From the NCBI GenBank assembly GCA_015058015.1, contig SVDM01000003.1, positions 1 through 64,000 of the forward strand: DNA of 64,000 nucleotides. The letters run 5' to 3'. A program made the position numbers and the translations under genes. Source of the stretch: Lachnospiraceae bacterium (GTDB lineage: Bacteria > Bacillota > Clostridia > Lachnospirales > Lachnospiraceae). The notes beneath the pieces were generated by a model that worked only from the letters and a program-made list of their open reading frames with translations, ran no database searches and was not told where the DNA came from. Of this stretch, positions 37,284 through 63,614 are shown piece after piece (position 1 is the stretch's first letter; the number at the start of each line of letters is the position of its first letter).

Positions 37284-38666
37284 ATGTACACTATTCATTT
37301 TGACAAGCCCCAGCACATACATTTTATTGCTATAGGCGGTATCAGTATGAGCGGACTTGCGGAAGTATTGTTAAAAGCAGGCTTTACGGTATCCGGCTCG
37401 GATTCCAAGGAATCTGACCTTACCAAACACCTTGCAACGCTAGGCGCCAAAGTCTCTATAGGACAGCGCGCTTCCAATATAACAGACGATATTGAGGTTG
37501 TGGTTTATTCCGCAGCCATTAAAGAGGACAACCCGGAATATGCAGAGGCTGTAAGCAGGGGTCTTCCCATGCTTACGAGAGCCCAGCTTCTCGGACAGGT
37601 CATGACCAATTACAAGACTCCCGTAGCCATCTCAGGAACCCACGGTAAGACCACTACCACATCCATGGTTACTCAGATCCTTTTGGAAAACAATATGGAT
37701 CCCACCATAAGCGTGGGGGGAATCCTTGATTCCATCGGGGGCAATATCCGTGTGGGACAATCCGAATACTTTGTAACGGAGGCTTGCGAATATACCAATT
37801 CATTCTTAAGCTTCTTCCCCAAGATTGGTATCATCCTTAATATAGAAGCAGAGCATCTTGACTTCTTCAAGGACTTAGATGATATCCGTCATTCCTTCAG
37901 GAGATTTGCCGAGCTTCTTCCTTCCGATGGTACTCTTATCATAAACGGAGATATTGAAAACTGTGAAGAATTGACAAATGACCTTCCCTGTAAGGTGGTT
38001 ACTTTCGGTTTCGGTAAAGGTTGCGATTTTTCTGCAACAGACGAAACCTACAACGAGATGGCCAACCCTTCCTACACACTTTTGTACAAAGGTGAATCCA
38101 CCGGTGTAACGGTTTCTTTAAGTGTGCCGGGAAGACATAACATATACAACTCCCTTGCAAGTATAGCTTTTGCTACTGCTATAGGTTTATCTTACGAGGA
38201 TGCGGCAAAGGGTCTTAAGCCCTTCCACGGTGCCGACAGAAGGTTCCAGCTGAAAGGAAAGCTTGGGGAGATAACCATTATTGATGATTATGCTCATCAT
38301 CCTTCAGAGATTCGTGCCACCTTAGAGGCTGCTAAGAAGTATCCTCACAAGCGAATTGTTGTGGTCTTCCAGCCCCATACATACAGCAGAACCAAGGCTT
38401 TTCTTAAGGATTTCTCAGAGGCCCTTTCACTGGCTGATGAGGTGGTTTTGGCTGACATTTACTCGGCTAGAGAGAAGAATACATACAATATATCTTCCAA
38501 AGATTTATTGGCCATCCTACAAAGTGACGGGATAAAGAGTTGCTATTTCCCATCCTTTGACGAAATCGAAAATTATCTTTTGCAAAATTGCACATCAGGA
38601 GACCTGTTGATAACTATGGGAGCCGGAGATGTTGTAAATATTGGCGAGAGACTTTTAGGAAAATAA
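37284..38666 (+). CDS. murC: UDP-N-acetylmuramate--L-alanine ligase
   Basis: 460 residues. HFIAIGGISMSGLAEVLL (Rossmann N-terminus), ATP loop SGTHGKTTTTSM, EACEYTNSF, central domain, and C-terminal DDYAHHPSEI, VVVFQPHTYSRTK as in MurC. Adds L-Ala to UDP-MurNAc in the cytosol. Stands alone, with its own promoter and terminator. Confidence 0.96.
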   Translation: MYTIHFDKPQHIHFIAIGGISMSGLAEVLLKAGFTVSGSDSKESDLTKHLATLGAKVSIGQRASNITDDIEVVVYSAAIKEDNPEYAEAVSRGLPMLTRAQLLGQVMTNYKTPVAISGTHGKTTTTSMVTQILLENNMDPTISVGGILDSIGGNIRVGQSEYFVTEACEYTNSFLSFFPKIGIILNIEAEHLDFFKDLDDIRHSFRRFAELLPSDGTLIINGDIENCEELTNDLPCKVVTFGFGKGCDFSATDETYNEMANPSYTLLYKGESTGVTVSLSVPGRHNIYNSLASIAFATAIGLSYEDAAKGLKPFHGADRRFQLKGKLGEITIIDDYAHHPSEIRATLEAAKKYPHKRIVVVFQPHTYSRTKAFLKDFSEALSLADEVVLADIYSAREKNTYNISSKDLLAILQSDGIKSCYFPSFDEIENYLLQNCTSGDLLITMGAGDVVNIGERLLGK

Positions 38667-38830
38667 TTATCCACATAATCCACATTGTAATTTCAAGTTT
38701 TACACACATTACAATGTGGATTTCTTTTTTCATTTTTTTCTTCTTGAAAAATCATTCCAAACCTTTATTACTGTGCTCTGAAAAATTATCGCCTCCCCTG
38801 TCAAGAATATTTTTGTCCACATTATCCACA
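38667..38830. promoter_or_regulatory. Cluster of DnaA boxes between murC and dnaD
   Basis: Perfect TTATCCACA at 38667-38675 and 38822-38830; one-mismatch copies TAATCCACA at 38676-38684 and TTGTCCACA at 38813-38821, so two tandem pairs; an inverted one-mismatch copy TGTGGATTT lies in the terminator arm at 38715-38723. The second pair sits about 45-60 bp upstream of the -35 of the dnaD promoter. Function (titration, regulation of the loader genes, or origin-related) is inference. Confidence 0.7.
38678..38737 (+). terminator. Terminator of murC
   Basis: ATCCACATTGTAA (38678-38690) pairs with TTACAATGTGGAT (38709-38721), then TTCTTTTTTCATTTTTTT. Its left arm overlaps the second DnaA box. Confidence 0.8.
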
Positions 38831-38875: not shown

Positions 38876-38903
38876 TTGATATTTGCTGTTCATATGGTAT
38901 AAT
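38876..38903 (+). promoter_or_regulatory. Extended -10 promoter of dnaD-dnaI
   Basis: TTGATA (38876-38881), 16-bp spacer, TGG-TATAAT (-10 at 38898-38903). Expected start near 38910, 40 bases before the ATG. Confidence 0.75.
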
Positions 38904-38949: not shown

Positions 38950-40017
38950 ATGTCTGAGGATATTAGACTGAGGAGAAAACGTAAGGCATCTATCACACAG
39001 GTGTCTAATACTTTTATTGACAAATATATGACCGATGCAAACGGCGAATTTGTAAAGGTATATCTGTATTTATTAAGATGCATCGGTGCTGATCGTGACA
39101 ATTTGTCAATATCAGATATAGCAGATCACTTTGACGACACGGAGAAAGACGTTAAGAGGGCGCTGCGCTACTGGGAAAAGATGAAGCTTCTTCATCTTGA
39201 ATATGACGGCAAAAAGCTTACTTCCATTGATGTACTTGATGTTCCGGAGGAGACAGAAGAACTTCCAGTTCCTTCACAAAACGCAAGGAAGTCCGGTATG
39301 GAGGATGGGGAAGAGGGCCCCGAATCTGCACCCAAGCGTACCCGGAAGAAGGCAGCGACCCCTGCTATAACTGAAGACGAGCAAGCAATTCTTAAGGAAT
39401 TGCTCTTTGTGACGGAGACATATTTAGGCAAAACCTTATCTTCCACAGAGGCTAAGAAGATTATATATTTCTATGACACTTTGGGCTTCAACCCGGAGCT
39501 CATTGAGTATCTTGTAGAGTATTGTGTTTCCAAGAATTACAGAACAATAAGCGCTATGGAAAAGATTGCGCTTTCCTGGCACGAAGAGGGAATTAAGACG
39601 GCCAAAGAAGCCCGCGCACATGTTATCACTCACACAGAAGAATACATTGCAGCGGTTAAGTCTTTCGGCATCTCGGGACGCTCTCTTAACACTTCTGAAC
39701 TTCGTTACCTTAATAAATGGACGGAGGAATATCATTTTACAGCCGTGCTTATTAAGGAAGCATGCGAACGAACAATTGAGTTTACACATCAGGCCAGCTT
39801 CAAATATGCTGACTCCATAATGGAGAGCTGGTTTAAGAAAAATGTGACCTCAATGGATGATGTTAAGATTCTGGATGCAGAACACAAGGCAGCTACAGAA
39901 AGCTTAAGACCTCAATTTAAGAAGGTTACCGTTAACAGTAAGTTTAATAATTATGAGCACCGTGATTATGATTACGATGCAATCGAGAAACAGTTATTGG
40001 GCAATGTAAGTAATTAA
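38950..40017 (+). CDS. DnaD-domain replication initiation protein
   Basis: 355 residues from ATG 38950 (GAGGGGA upstream). N-terminal winged-helix-like part (FVKVYLYLLRCIGADRDNLSISDIADHF), acidic/basic linker (~110-140), and C-terminal DnaD domains: LGKTLSSTEAKKIIYFYDTLGFNPELIEYLVEYCV and YLNKWTEEYHFTAVLIKEACERTI, the latter with the tail near YADSIMESWFKK resembling the YxxxIxxxW motif. DnaD/DnaB(II) proteins bring helicase loaders to the origin. Followed by dnaI with 11 bp gap. Confidence 0.9.
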   Translation: MSEDIRLRRKRKASITQVSNTFIDKYMTDANGEFVKVYLYLLRCIGADRDNLSISDIADHFDDTEKDVKRALRYWEKMKLLHLEYDGKKLTSIDVLDVPEETEELPVPSQNARKSGMEDGEEGPESAPKRTRKKAATPAITEDEQAILKELLFVTETYLGKTLSSTEAKKIIYFYDTLGFNPELIEYLVEYCVSKNYRTISAMEKIALSWHEEGIKTAKEARAHVITHTEEYIAAVKSFGISGRSLNTSELRYLNKWTEEYHFTAVLIKEACERTIEFTHQASFKYADSIMESWFKKNVTSMDDVKILDAEHKAATESLRPQFKKVTVNSKFNNYEHRDYDYDAIEKQLLGNVSN

Positions 40018-40028
40018 AGGGGTAGAGA

Positions 40029-41024
40029 ATGCTTACTAAGACACAACACAGTGAGATTATGAGAATATATGATTCCTACCAATTGGAATCACAACACGAC
40101 TTAGATGAAAGGATATCCGAGGTTTATTCAAAGGATTCGGAATTCGAATCAATAGATGAACAGATTGCAGAAGCTTCCGTTGAATATGCCAAGAAGCGGA
40201 TAAGAGGCGGCGGAGAGAATCTTCCTCCCCTGTCTGAGACCATAGGCAAGTTCTCGGACCGCAAGATAAACCTCCTTAAGAATTTGGGTTATCCCGAAGA
40301 TTATCTTAAGCCGCGCTACCGTTGTCCTATCTGTCAGGATACGGGTTATGTGGGAATTAACAAATGTTCCTGCTTTAACAAATTAGCTACGGACATGCTC
40401 TATTCTCATTCCAATATTAAGAATATGTCGGCGGATGAGAATTTCAATACATTCCGTTTTGACTTTTATGATGATACCTATATAGACCCTGCAACGGGTA
40501 AAACAGCTTTAGCCAATGCTAAAGATGCATACGAAAAAGCTCGGATTTTTGTTGACAGTTTTGATAAATCGTTTAATAATATATTTTTGTATGGAGATAC
40601 GGGAGTTGGAAAGACATTCTTAACTAACTGTATTGCTACAGAGATAATAGCCATGGGCAAGTCTACCATATATTACACTTCTTTTGAACTCTTTGATATG
40701 CTTGCCAAGACAAGATTCGGCGGTGACTCCGAAGACAACAATGTATATGATGCTATTCTCTCTTGTGATTTACTTATAATTGATGATTTGGGAACAGAGC
40801 TGCCCAATTCGCTAACCGCATCACAGTTGTTTTTGATAGTTAATGAGCGTATCCTTCGGGAGAAATCCACTATCATTTCCACTAACTTAGCTGTGCCCGC
40901 ATTCTCCGAGATATATAGCACAAGAACATTTTCAAGGATATCCAGCGAATACACCTTCTTAAAACTTACGGGGGCTGATATTCGTGTCAAAATAGGTAAC
41001 AAATCACAACTGTCACGGAGGTAA
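40029..41024 (+). CDS. DnaI/DnaC-type helicase loader ATPase
   Basis: 331 residues. N-terminal zinc-binding cluster C-PIC...C-SC (YRCPICQDTGYVGINKC), AAA+ part with Walker A YGDTGVGKTF near 188-197, Walker B LLIIDDLGTE, sensor STNLA and arginine finger region TRTFSRI. Loads the replicative helicase (dnaB is at 62271). Operon with dnaD; the prs gene begins 6 bp later. Confidence 0.92.
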   Translation: MLTKTQHSEIMRIYDSYQLESQHDLDERISEVYSKDSEFESIDEQIAEASVEYAKKRIRGGGENLPPLSETIGKFSDRKINLLKNLGYPEDYLKPRYRCPICQDTGYVGINKCSCFNKLATDMLYSHSNIKNMSADENFNTFRFDFYDDTYIDPATGKTALANAKDAYEKARIFVDSFDKSFNNIFLYGDTGVGKTFLTNCIATEIIAMGKSTIYYTSFELFDMLAKTRFGGDSEDNNVYDAILSCDLLIIDDLGTELPNSLTASQLFLIVNERILREKSTIISTNLAVPAFSEIYSTRTFSRISSEYTFLKLTGADIRVKIGNKSQLSRR

Positions 41025-41030
41025 TCTTTT

Positions 41031-42200
41031 ATGAAACAAGAGAATGTTGCACTTAATAACATTCCTGTAGGCGCATTGGGACTTATCCCTATGCCGGGCA
41101 CCGAAGAGCTTGGAGAGGAAATCAACCATCATCTGGTAAGATGGCGTAACGAGGAAGAGGATGACGATTACAATCATTCCTTTGTAGGTTATCACAGAGA
41201 TAATTATATCCTTAAAGTAGCCACACCGAGATTCGGATCCGGTGAAGGTAAAGGTCTCCTTAAGGAATCTGCCAGAGGCTATGACATTTTCCTTCTTTGC
41301 GATGTAACCAACCACAGCCTTACTTACAAGATGTGCGGACAGGAGAATCATATGTCTCCCGATGATCATTTTCAAAATCTTAAGCGTATCATCGCTGCAT
41401 TAGGCGGTAAGGCCCACAGAATTACTGTTATCATGCCCTTCCTTTATGAAGGTCGCCAGCACAAACGTACCACAAGAGAATCTCTTGACTGTGCATTGGC
41501 TCTGCAGGAACTGGTTAATATGGGTGTTGAGAATATTATCACCTTTGATGCTCATGACCCGAGAGTTCAGAATGCTATTCCCTTAAGCGGATTTGAAACT
41601 GTAACTCCCGCATACCAGTTTATAAAGGGATTATTAGCTGCAGTTCCCGACCTCCAAATAGACAGTGATCACATGATGATCATATCCCCCGATGAAGGTG
41701 GTACCAACCGTGCGGTATATCTTGCCAACGTACTTGGTCTCGACATCGGTATGTTCTACAAACGTCGTGATTACTCTACCATCGTTAACGGAAGTAACCC
41801 CATCGTAGCACACGAGTTCCTGGGTTCATCCTTAGAGGGTAAAGACGTTATTATTATTGACGATATGATTTCTTCCGGTGACAGTATGTTTGATGTTGCC
41901 AAAGAATTAAAGAAGAGAAATGCAAACAGAATATTCGTAGCCACCACTTTCGGACTCTTCACCAATGGTTTAGAGAAGTTCGATAAGGCATACGAAGAAG
42001 GACTTATCACCAAGATTATGACTACCAATCTTGTATATCAGTCACCTGAGTTATTATCAAGAGAATGGTACATCAACTGTGATATGAGTAAATATATTGC
42101 ATTTCTTGTTGATAAACTTAACAATGATTCTTCCATAAGCGATCTTCTTAATCCTTATGACAAGATTCAGGCCCTTGTAAACAACTACAAGGAAAGATAA
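41031..42200 (+). CDS. Ribose-phosphate pyrophosphokinase family protein (long form)
   Basis: 389 residues, versus about 315 for standard PrsA, with an N-terminal extension of ~60. YEGRQHKRTTRESLDCALAL is the ATP-loop region, ENIITFDAHDP the catalytic segment, SPDEGGTNRAVYLANVLGL, and VIIIDDMISSGDSM the PRPP-binding loop. Makes PRPP from ribose-5-phosphate and ATP. The acidic residues of the loop are kept, so activity is likely. Coupled to dnaI, thus with replication genes. Confidence 0.88.
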   Translation: MKQENVALNNIPVGALGLIPMPGTEELGEEINHHLVRWRNEEEDDDYNHSFVGYHRDNYILKVATPRFGSGEGKGLLKESARGYDIFLLCDVTNHSLTYKMCGQENHMSPDDHFQNLKRIIAALGGKAHRITVIMPFLYEGRQHKRTTRESLDCALALQELVNMGVENIITFDAHDPRVQNAIPLSGFETVTPAYQFIKGLLAAVPDLQIDSDHMMIISPDEGGTNRAVYLANVLGLDIGMFYKRRDYSTIVNGSNPIVAHEFLGSSLEGKDVIIIDDMISSGDSMFDVAKELKKRNANRIFVATTFGLFTNGLEKFDKAYEEGLITKIMTTNLVYQSPELLSREWYINCDMSKYIAFLVDKLNNDSSISDLLNPYDKIQALVNNYKER

Positions 42201-62270: not shown

Positions 62271-63614
62271 TTATAAGCTATGGCTACCCTTTTCTTTGTT
62301 GGCAAACTTGGTAAATTCGGGGATCCATACCAGTTCCACCATTCCCACAGGGCCGTTTCTTTGCTTGGCTATATTAATCTCAGAGATATTCTTCTTCTCC
62401 GTATCCGGATGATAATAATCATCCCTGTATATAAACATAACAACGTCCGCGTCCTGCTCAATGGAACCGGATTCACGAAGGTCCGACAACATGGGTCTGT
62501 GATCCGGACGCTGCTCTACTGCACGGGATAGCTGGGACAATGCAACCACCGGTACGTTAAGCTCTCTTGCAAGAGCCTTCAATGACCTGGATATCTCCGA
62601 TACTTCCTGCTGTCTGGAATCCGTGCGGCTCCTCGAAGTCATAAGTTGCAGGTAGTCGATAATGACCATCTTAATGTCATGCTCAAGCTTATACTTTCTG
62701 CACTTAGATCTGAGTTCGCCAATAGAGATACCCGGAGTGTCATCTATAATTAAGGGCGACAATCCCACAATATCTGCGGACTCTCCCAGTCTGCTCCACT
62801 CTTCATCAGTCAATCGTCCTTTTCTTATCTTCTGGGAATCCACCTTGGATTCCATGGCAAAGAGTCTGTTAACCAACTGGCCCTTGGACATCTCCAGACT
62901 GAATATGGCGACAGGGCTCTTCTCTTTGAAGGCCACATGCTGAGCAATATTCAGAACGAAGGCCGTCTTACCCATAGAAGGTCTGGCCGCAATTAGCACA
63001 AAGTCCGAAGGCTGCAAACCGGAAGTCATATAATCCAAGTCCAAAAAGCCTGTGGGCACACCGGTTACGGAACCCTTACTCTTGGCTGCAGCGGAAATCT
63101 TATTAAGCTGTTCAACTACAATCTCACTTATAGGGGTAAAATCCGTATGATTATTCTGTTGTAAAAGGTTGAATACATCCTTCTCCGTATTCTCTAATAT
63201 GGTCTCCATACCCGCCTTGCCTGCATAGCACTCGTTGGCAATGGCTTCAGTAGTACGGATAAGCTTACGAAGAATGGACTTCTCCCATACTATATTGGCA
63301 TAGTAATTAACGTTTGATGATGTCTCCGTATTACGAATCAAATCTCTGACATAGTCAAGATTGCTAATCTCCGGAGGAACATTCTTCTCCTTAAGCCGAT
63401 CCTGCAATACCACAAGATCCGTTGGTTTGCCTTCATTGCATAACTCAACCAAAGTCTCGAAGATAATTCCATACTGCTTCTGATAAAAATCATCCGGTGT
63501 CAGAGTCTCAGAGGCTACGATTATAGCGTCTCTGTCAAGAATCATGGATCCGATAACGGCCTGCTCGGCCTCCGGAGAATTGGGCATTACTCTTTTGAGA
63601 ACCTGCTCGTCCAT
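62271..63614 (-). CDS. dnaB: Replicative DNA helicase DnaB
   Basis: 447 residues. N-terminal MPNSPEAEQAVIGSMI, Walker A AARPSMGKTAF near 208-218, DYLQLM, SQLSRAVEQRPDHRPMLSDLRESG in pieces. Hexameric helicase (called DnaC in Bacillus). ATG overlaps the rplI stop by one base (TAATG). Confidence 0.97.
   Translation of the reverse strand: MDEQVLKRVMPNSPEAEQAVIGSMILDRDAIIVASETLTPDDFYQKQYGIIFETLVELCNEGKPTDLVVLQDRLKEKNVPPEISNLDYVRDLIRNTETSSNVNYYANIVWEKSILRKLIRTTEAIANECYAGKAGMETILENTEKDVFNLLQQNNHTDFTPISEIVVEQLNKISAAAKSKGSVTGVPTGFLDLDYMTSGLQPSDFVLIAARPSMGKTAFVLNIAQHVAFKEKSPVAIFSLEMSKGQLVNRLFAMESKVDSQKIRKGRLTDEEWSRLGESADIVGLSPLIIDDTPGISIGELRSKCRKYKLEHDIKMVIIDYLQLMTSRSRTDSRQQEVSEISRSLKALARELNVPVVALSQLSRAVEQRPDHRPMLSDLRESGSIEQDADVVMFIYRDDYYHPDTEKKNISEINIAKQRNGPVGMVELVWIPEFTKFANKEKGSHSL

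Follow-up and report, generated by a model that had tools for sequence, protein, structure and literature searches.

The region between murC and dnaD of this Lachnospiraceae bacterium is best explained overall as a control region through which DnaA regulates the dnaD–helicase-loader(–prs) operon, a prediction that is considered fairly likely and that builds on features evident in the sequence: DnaA boxes, their tandem geometry, their conservation, a promoter and helical phasing. In this gut-type bacterium and in more than 100 related genera, the initiator DnaA probably controls the production of its own downstream partner. A connection between DnaA and the helicase-loader operon had been proposed in a sequence-only reading of the same DNA; conservation across genera and families, together with the helical phasing between array and promoter, argues for it.

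Tandem boxes and their gene setting

Positions refer to the window, that is, the whole stretch of 64,000 nucleotides that was analysed. The boxes are located between murC and the genes dnaD, dnaC (dnaI-like) and prs, and the following features were collated:

37284 to 38666, plus strand: murC, UDP-N-acetylmuramate–L-alanine ligase (TIGR01082, 481 bits over cut-off)
38605 to 38613, minus strand: one-mismatch box TTATCAACA, within the murC coding sequence at its 3' end
38667 to 38675, plus strand: DnaA box 1, murC-side array, TTATCCACA, perfect
38676 to 38684, plus strand: DnaA box 2, murC-side array, TAATCCACA, zero spacer to box 1
38677 to 38745, plus strand: intrinsic terminator of murC, 15-bp stem (38677–38691 with 38708–38722) and U-rich tail
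38813 to 38821, plus strand: DnaA box 3, promoter-side array, TTGTCCACA
38822 to 38830, plus strand: DnaA box 4, promoter-side array, TTATCCACA, perfect, zero spacer to box 3
38876 to 38903, plus strand: predicted dnaD promoter, TTGATA, 16 bp, TATAAT, with extended -10 TG (38895–38903)
38950 to 40017, plus strand: dnaD-like gene, 355 aa, two DnaB_2/DnaD domains (PF07261, TIGR01446)
40029 to 41024, plus strand: AAA+ helicase-loader gene (dnaC/dnaI-like), 331 aa (NF005304, over cut-off)
41031 to 42200, plus strand: PRPP-synthetase-like gene, prs (NF005299 and TIGR01251, over cut-off)

The two perfect boxes and two near copies that the sequence-only reading had described as tandem pairs were found there when the letters were read. 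Both zero-spacer pairs are on the plus strand, 146 bp apart; the first begins at the base directly following the murC stop codon, which ends at 38666, and the second lies upstream of the dnaD–dnaI promoter, as had been claimed, its start being 85 bp upstream of the dnaD -10 element (promoter calls relied on matching a simple pattern). The loader gene shows weaker matches to DnaC, DnaI and DnaA as well. The gaps between dnaD and the loader gene (11 bp) and between the loader gene and the PRPP-synthetase-like gene (6 bp) are short, and the three genes presumably form one operon. With a PRPP-synthetase-like gene behind the helicase loader, nucleotide supply would be tied to the loader operon. The distance of about 23 kb to dnaB–rplI, to which weight had also been given, is correct (dnaB helicase at 62271–63614 with rplI beyond, both on the minus strand at the far end of the window), but nothing ties these genes to the site and the distance carries no evidential weight.

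The murC gene is followed by a stable stem-loop (-16.8 kcal/mol, z -5.9) and a U tract, as is characteristic of an intrinsic terminator; its 16-nt loop was missed by the simple terminator scan, which accepts loops of 3–8 nt only. Most of box 2 (from 38676) forms part of the 5' arm of this terminator, and the 3' arm bears the inverted box-like sequence TGTGGATTT.

Single boxes with at most one mismatch are near chance level in the 64-kb window (26 found versus 18 expected; 26 were reached in 4 of 100 shuffles of the window). The tandem pattern TNNTCCACATNNTCCACA, by comparison, occurs twice in the whole 2.57-Mb genome, both times at the murC–dnaD site, and its reversed control pattern has no occurrence in the same 2.57 Mb. 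By these tandem pairs and their conservation, the 9-mers resembling TTATCCACA or TTWTNCACA form a cluster above chance. The known reader of the exact 9-mer TTATCCACA is DnaA, and the DnaA of this organism retains the box-reading signature NRDHTT, both of which point to DnaA as the putative binder of the arrays. That the boxes are chance matches, or are read by another transcription factor, is very improbable: the near-chance number of single boxes would fit the former, yet the tandem form and the deep conservation speak against both, as does the identity of the known reader against another factor. Chance itself was ruled out by the genome-unique tandem pairs and by their conservation relative to permuted motifs.

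A cluster of DnaA boxes in AT-rich DNA adjoining loader genes might also be taken for a replication origin or a secondary origin, which is hardly conceivable here. Cumulative GC skew, which had been put forward for placing oriC, keeps its direction throughout the window except for a slight rise over the plus-strand genes, and dnaA is carried by another contig (C7) with boxes of its own upstream (two perfect ones in opposite orientation and one TTATCAACA). The site is accordingly not oriC, and the identification was rejected on skew and on the location of the dnaA locus. The minus-strand TTATCAACA box in the 3' end of murC is found at a fixed distance of 62–63 bp upstream of array 1 in many genera; it overlies conserved codons (LLITMGAGD) and may be a weak DnaA box or be preserved by constraint on the codons.

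Conservation and anatomy in relatives

Regions upstream of dnaC were collected in Lachnospiraceae from a single genome for each genus when this could be done, with additional families of the order included as well; the genomes are a sample rather than a census, and some loci reach only 1.5 kb. A locus was counted as positive if at least two one-mismatch boxes occurred within 40 bp on the plus strand. Under this definition 106 of the 121 Lachnospiraceae loci and 34 of the 38 loci from ten other families of the order were positive, compared with 0.44 and 0.06 genomes, respectively, for permuted motifs and with 7 and 1 for the minus strand. Zero-spacer pairs were kept at 94/121 and 31/38 loci, and each Lachnospiraceae locus carried 4.23 boxes on average versus 0.12 for permuted motifs. 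In the whole genomes of 31 relatives, 39 of the 73 strict pairs lay on the strand of the loader gene and no more than 2.5 kb upstream of it. Absence of the boxes in relatives had been named beforehand as an outcome that would overturn the proposal; across most of the order they are present, adjoining the promoter and conserved together with it.

The layout was found in 0/21 loci of the same order from families f7, f8, f9, f11 and f13–f16, a third group that was split off by family and not by the presence of murC: most of these loci have no murC upstream of dnaD, but f7 and f16 do. The tandem pair was likewise found in 0 of the 23 loci that represent other orders within the class.

Array 1 starts 0–3 bp after the murC stop codon in most genera, with the consensus TAG TTATCCACA TTATCCACA nnn TTATCAACA, followed about 20 bp further on by TGTGGATTTTTT; the stem of the murC terminator in relatives pairs a DnaA box with an inverted copy (consensus TGTGGATTTTTT). 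Array 2 reads TTATCCACATTATCCACA, often with a third box following at 0 or 3 bp; the weaker third box at 3 bp seen in relatives has no counterpart in this window. About half of the positive loci contain a single array; in many of these the promoter lies near array 1. The promoter consensus from 85 relatives' loci is TT..CA-17-TATGCTATAAT, in which the extended -10 is strong and the -35 element weak.

Boxes on the murC side persist after murC in 5 of 18 same-order genomes in which dnaD is located elsewhere (families f8 and f13), so dnaD regulation cannot explain all of the conservation of this array. Its second role may be that of a DnaA sink, of a roadblock, or of a relic of an ancestral murC–dnaD order. 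The same box architecture directly after murC is kept in one genome with dnaD elsewhere (L290). In two loci of family f8 (L292 and L294), again with dnaD elsewhere, perfect DnaA boxes separate murC from efp (the gene of elongation factor P).

By occupying the murC-side array, DnaA could block or terminate transcription coming from murC and so insulate dnaD, or the box-bearing hairpin could do the same without DnaA. The position of box 2 in the terminator stem, both here and in the family consensus, and the placement of the array directly after murC in most genera fit such a role; it is nevertheless quite unlikely to account for the site, given that an intrinsic terminator alone would suffice and that the promoter-side array and its phasing would be left unexplained.

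Helical phasing and predicted control of the promoter

The distance from the start of the last box (in the array nearest the promoter) to the -10 element takes preferred values of about 58, 68, 75–79, 88 and 110 bp. The last box starts at least 48 bp upstream of the -10 element, and the -35 and -10 elements are never overlapped by boxes. To allow for the common ancestry of related genera in the phasing test, tips of the dnaD tree were paired without reuse (phylogenetically disjoint contrasts), the changes in spacing were compared, and P values were obtained from jitter nulls with 9–21 informative pairs. Non-zero changes in the array-to-promoter spacing were mostly 9–12, 18–23, 30–32 or 40 bp, which corresponds to a mean cosine of 0.62–0.66 at 10.5 bp (P=0.0002 versus jittered values), whereas the control distances (-10 to ATG and array to ATG) were flat at 10.5 bp (P=0.34–0.74). 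The geometry between boxes and promoter is therefore constrained.

The 10.5-bp phasing was seen in each subset, with P=0.0075 for single-array and P=0.003 for two-array loci. A 9-bp box register gave no signal in the pooled spacing contrasts (P=0.49–0.87), so that 9-bp periodicity was ruled out there as the cause of the phasing; in the two-array subset it is partly confounded, many changes being 8–10 bp, a range in which gain or loss of a 9-bp box is hard to separate from a 10-bp turn. The single-array subset is free of this confounding. Looping between the arrays was also considered and rejected: the spacing seemed 11-bp periodic when pooled, but the distance between arrays 1 and 2 gave no signal in the disjoint contrasts (P=0.58–0.96 last-to-last, P=0.28–0.87 first-to-first), nor did the distance from array 1 to the promoter (P=0.11–0.82).

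A site whose distance from a promoter changes in whole helical turns alone would act on that promoter, and because of this phasing the control of dnaD–dnaC transcription is the best-supported reading and passive titration alone is disfavoured. That the boxes serve mainly as a DnaA sink (a datA-like titration or inactivation site) and are near dnaD by happenstance is accordingly considered unlikely. Array 1 keeps its position relative to the murC stop codon and not to the promoter, boxes remain after murC in the genomes mentioned above that carry dnaD elsewhere, and four boxes are present here as against two perfect ones upstream of dnaA, all of which would suit a sink; titration, however, needs no helical phase, and yet the array-to--10 distance is phased and the control distances are not, and the boxes are strongly confined to one strand. 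The titration site suggested in the sequence-only reading may hold for the murC-side array but leaves the phasing unexplained.

In the predicted control region, DnaA would bind the promoter-side zero-spacer array (38813–38830), about 70–100 bp upstream of the transcription start, and, acting from one helical face, would touch or position RNA polymerase at a promoter that has an extended -10 and a weak -35 element. The likeliest sign would be activation, the loader proteins rising with DnaA or ATP-DnaA, by which their supply might be coupled to the cell cycle. Activation is favoured by the placement of the boxes wholly upstream of -35 and by the weak conserved -35 element, features that fit upstream activators in general. 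Dependence on an activator is less clear here than in relatives because the -35 element of this genome (TTGATA) is fairly good. The murC-side array (38667–38684), merged with the terminator of murC, would provide another platform for DnaA, which may add local DnaA or insulate the operon from murC read-through. For the clade as a whole, a circuit in which DnaA on one-face zero-spacer arrays directly activates the loader operon, with the box-stem terminator as a second element, is put forward tentatively, its chances being somewhat below even.

Repression of the operon by DnaA from the same phased upstream array, which would provide negative feedback on loader synthesis at high DnaA, is rather unlikely. 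The phasing leaves the sign unfixed, the promoter of this genome combines a good -35 with an extended -10 element, and several operons of B. subtilis are repressed by DnaA (PMC4447404); against repression, the boxes always stop short of both promoter elements, and the -35 element conserved in relatives is weak, as is more usual where promoters are activated.

Known systems, significance and other tandem pairs

Paired same-strand boxes of the TTATCCACA type outside oriC are also known as the double boxes of the E. coli DnaA regulon, which includes replication and nucleotide genes (PMC11317965). E. coli DnaA prefers box pairs spaced by 2–3 bp (PMC11317965), whereas two strong boxes with a spacer of 0 bp are found in both pairs here; simultaneous occupancy of both boxes is for this reason only putative. 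In B. subtilis, extra-oriC DnaA clusters have been described at sda/yqeG, ywlC, ywcI/vpr, trmE, yyzF–yydA and gcp/ydiF (PMC4447404). As is predicted of the present site, these are high-affinity DnaA sites near promoters in a Firmicute, with DnaA acting as activator (sda) or repressor, but no dnaD, dnaB or dnaI promoter is among the ten top-ranked regions bound by DnaA in vitro (PMC4447404). Caulobacter DnaA controls the dnaB helicase gene and dnaQ (Hottes 2005, via PMC8203912), and there, too, DnaA boxes precede a gene that acts at the helicase step of replication; that case differs in concerning the helicase and not its loader and in belonging to an unrelated lineage, and no phased tandem array is described in the portion of PMC8203912 consulted. 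The E. coli loci datA and DARS, which modulate DnaA, are also clusters of DnaA boxes outside oriC, whereas the boxes here are linked and phased to a promoter.

DnaA-controlled replication promoters are thus known as a kind; what would be new is a predicted one in which the arrays, unusually, have zero spacers and the terminator contains a box. The literature searches turned up no account of DnaA boxes at dnaD or dnaC in Clostridia, older work on Bacillus dnaB–dnaI being outside the scope of the search. To our knowledge, little has been established about how DnaA activity and helicase loading are coordinated in Firmicutes other than Bacillus. How C. difficile regulates the activity of its DnaA was described as unknown in a study of that organism (PMC7561715). 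The predicted conserved and phased site would tie the supply of loader to the level of the initiator in a concrete way throughout a large family of gut bacteria. Its zero-spacer geometry departs from the rule for DnaA pairs in E. coli. If the circuit is true, the licence to open the origin and the supply of helicase loader would rise together in Lachnospiraceae and its sister families.

Zero-spacer pairs at the dnaA locus were seen in a few relatives (L249, in the dnaA–dnaN interval of genome G145, and G150:C32:71196) and not in this genome. A second recurrent strict zero-spacer pair, mostly not at dnaA, was observed in relatives (L233, L235, L236, L238, L242, L243 and L246, at position 2000 in each); the equivalent place upstream of hpf in this genome (L309) was searched and contains no tandem boxes. 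With gene names assigned by sequence inspection only, this second pair lies downstream of a gene for a secreted SH3-NlpC/P60-like hydrolase, and either upstream of hpf–secA or near a DUF1858-like gene and mecA.
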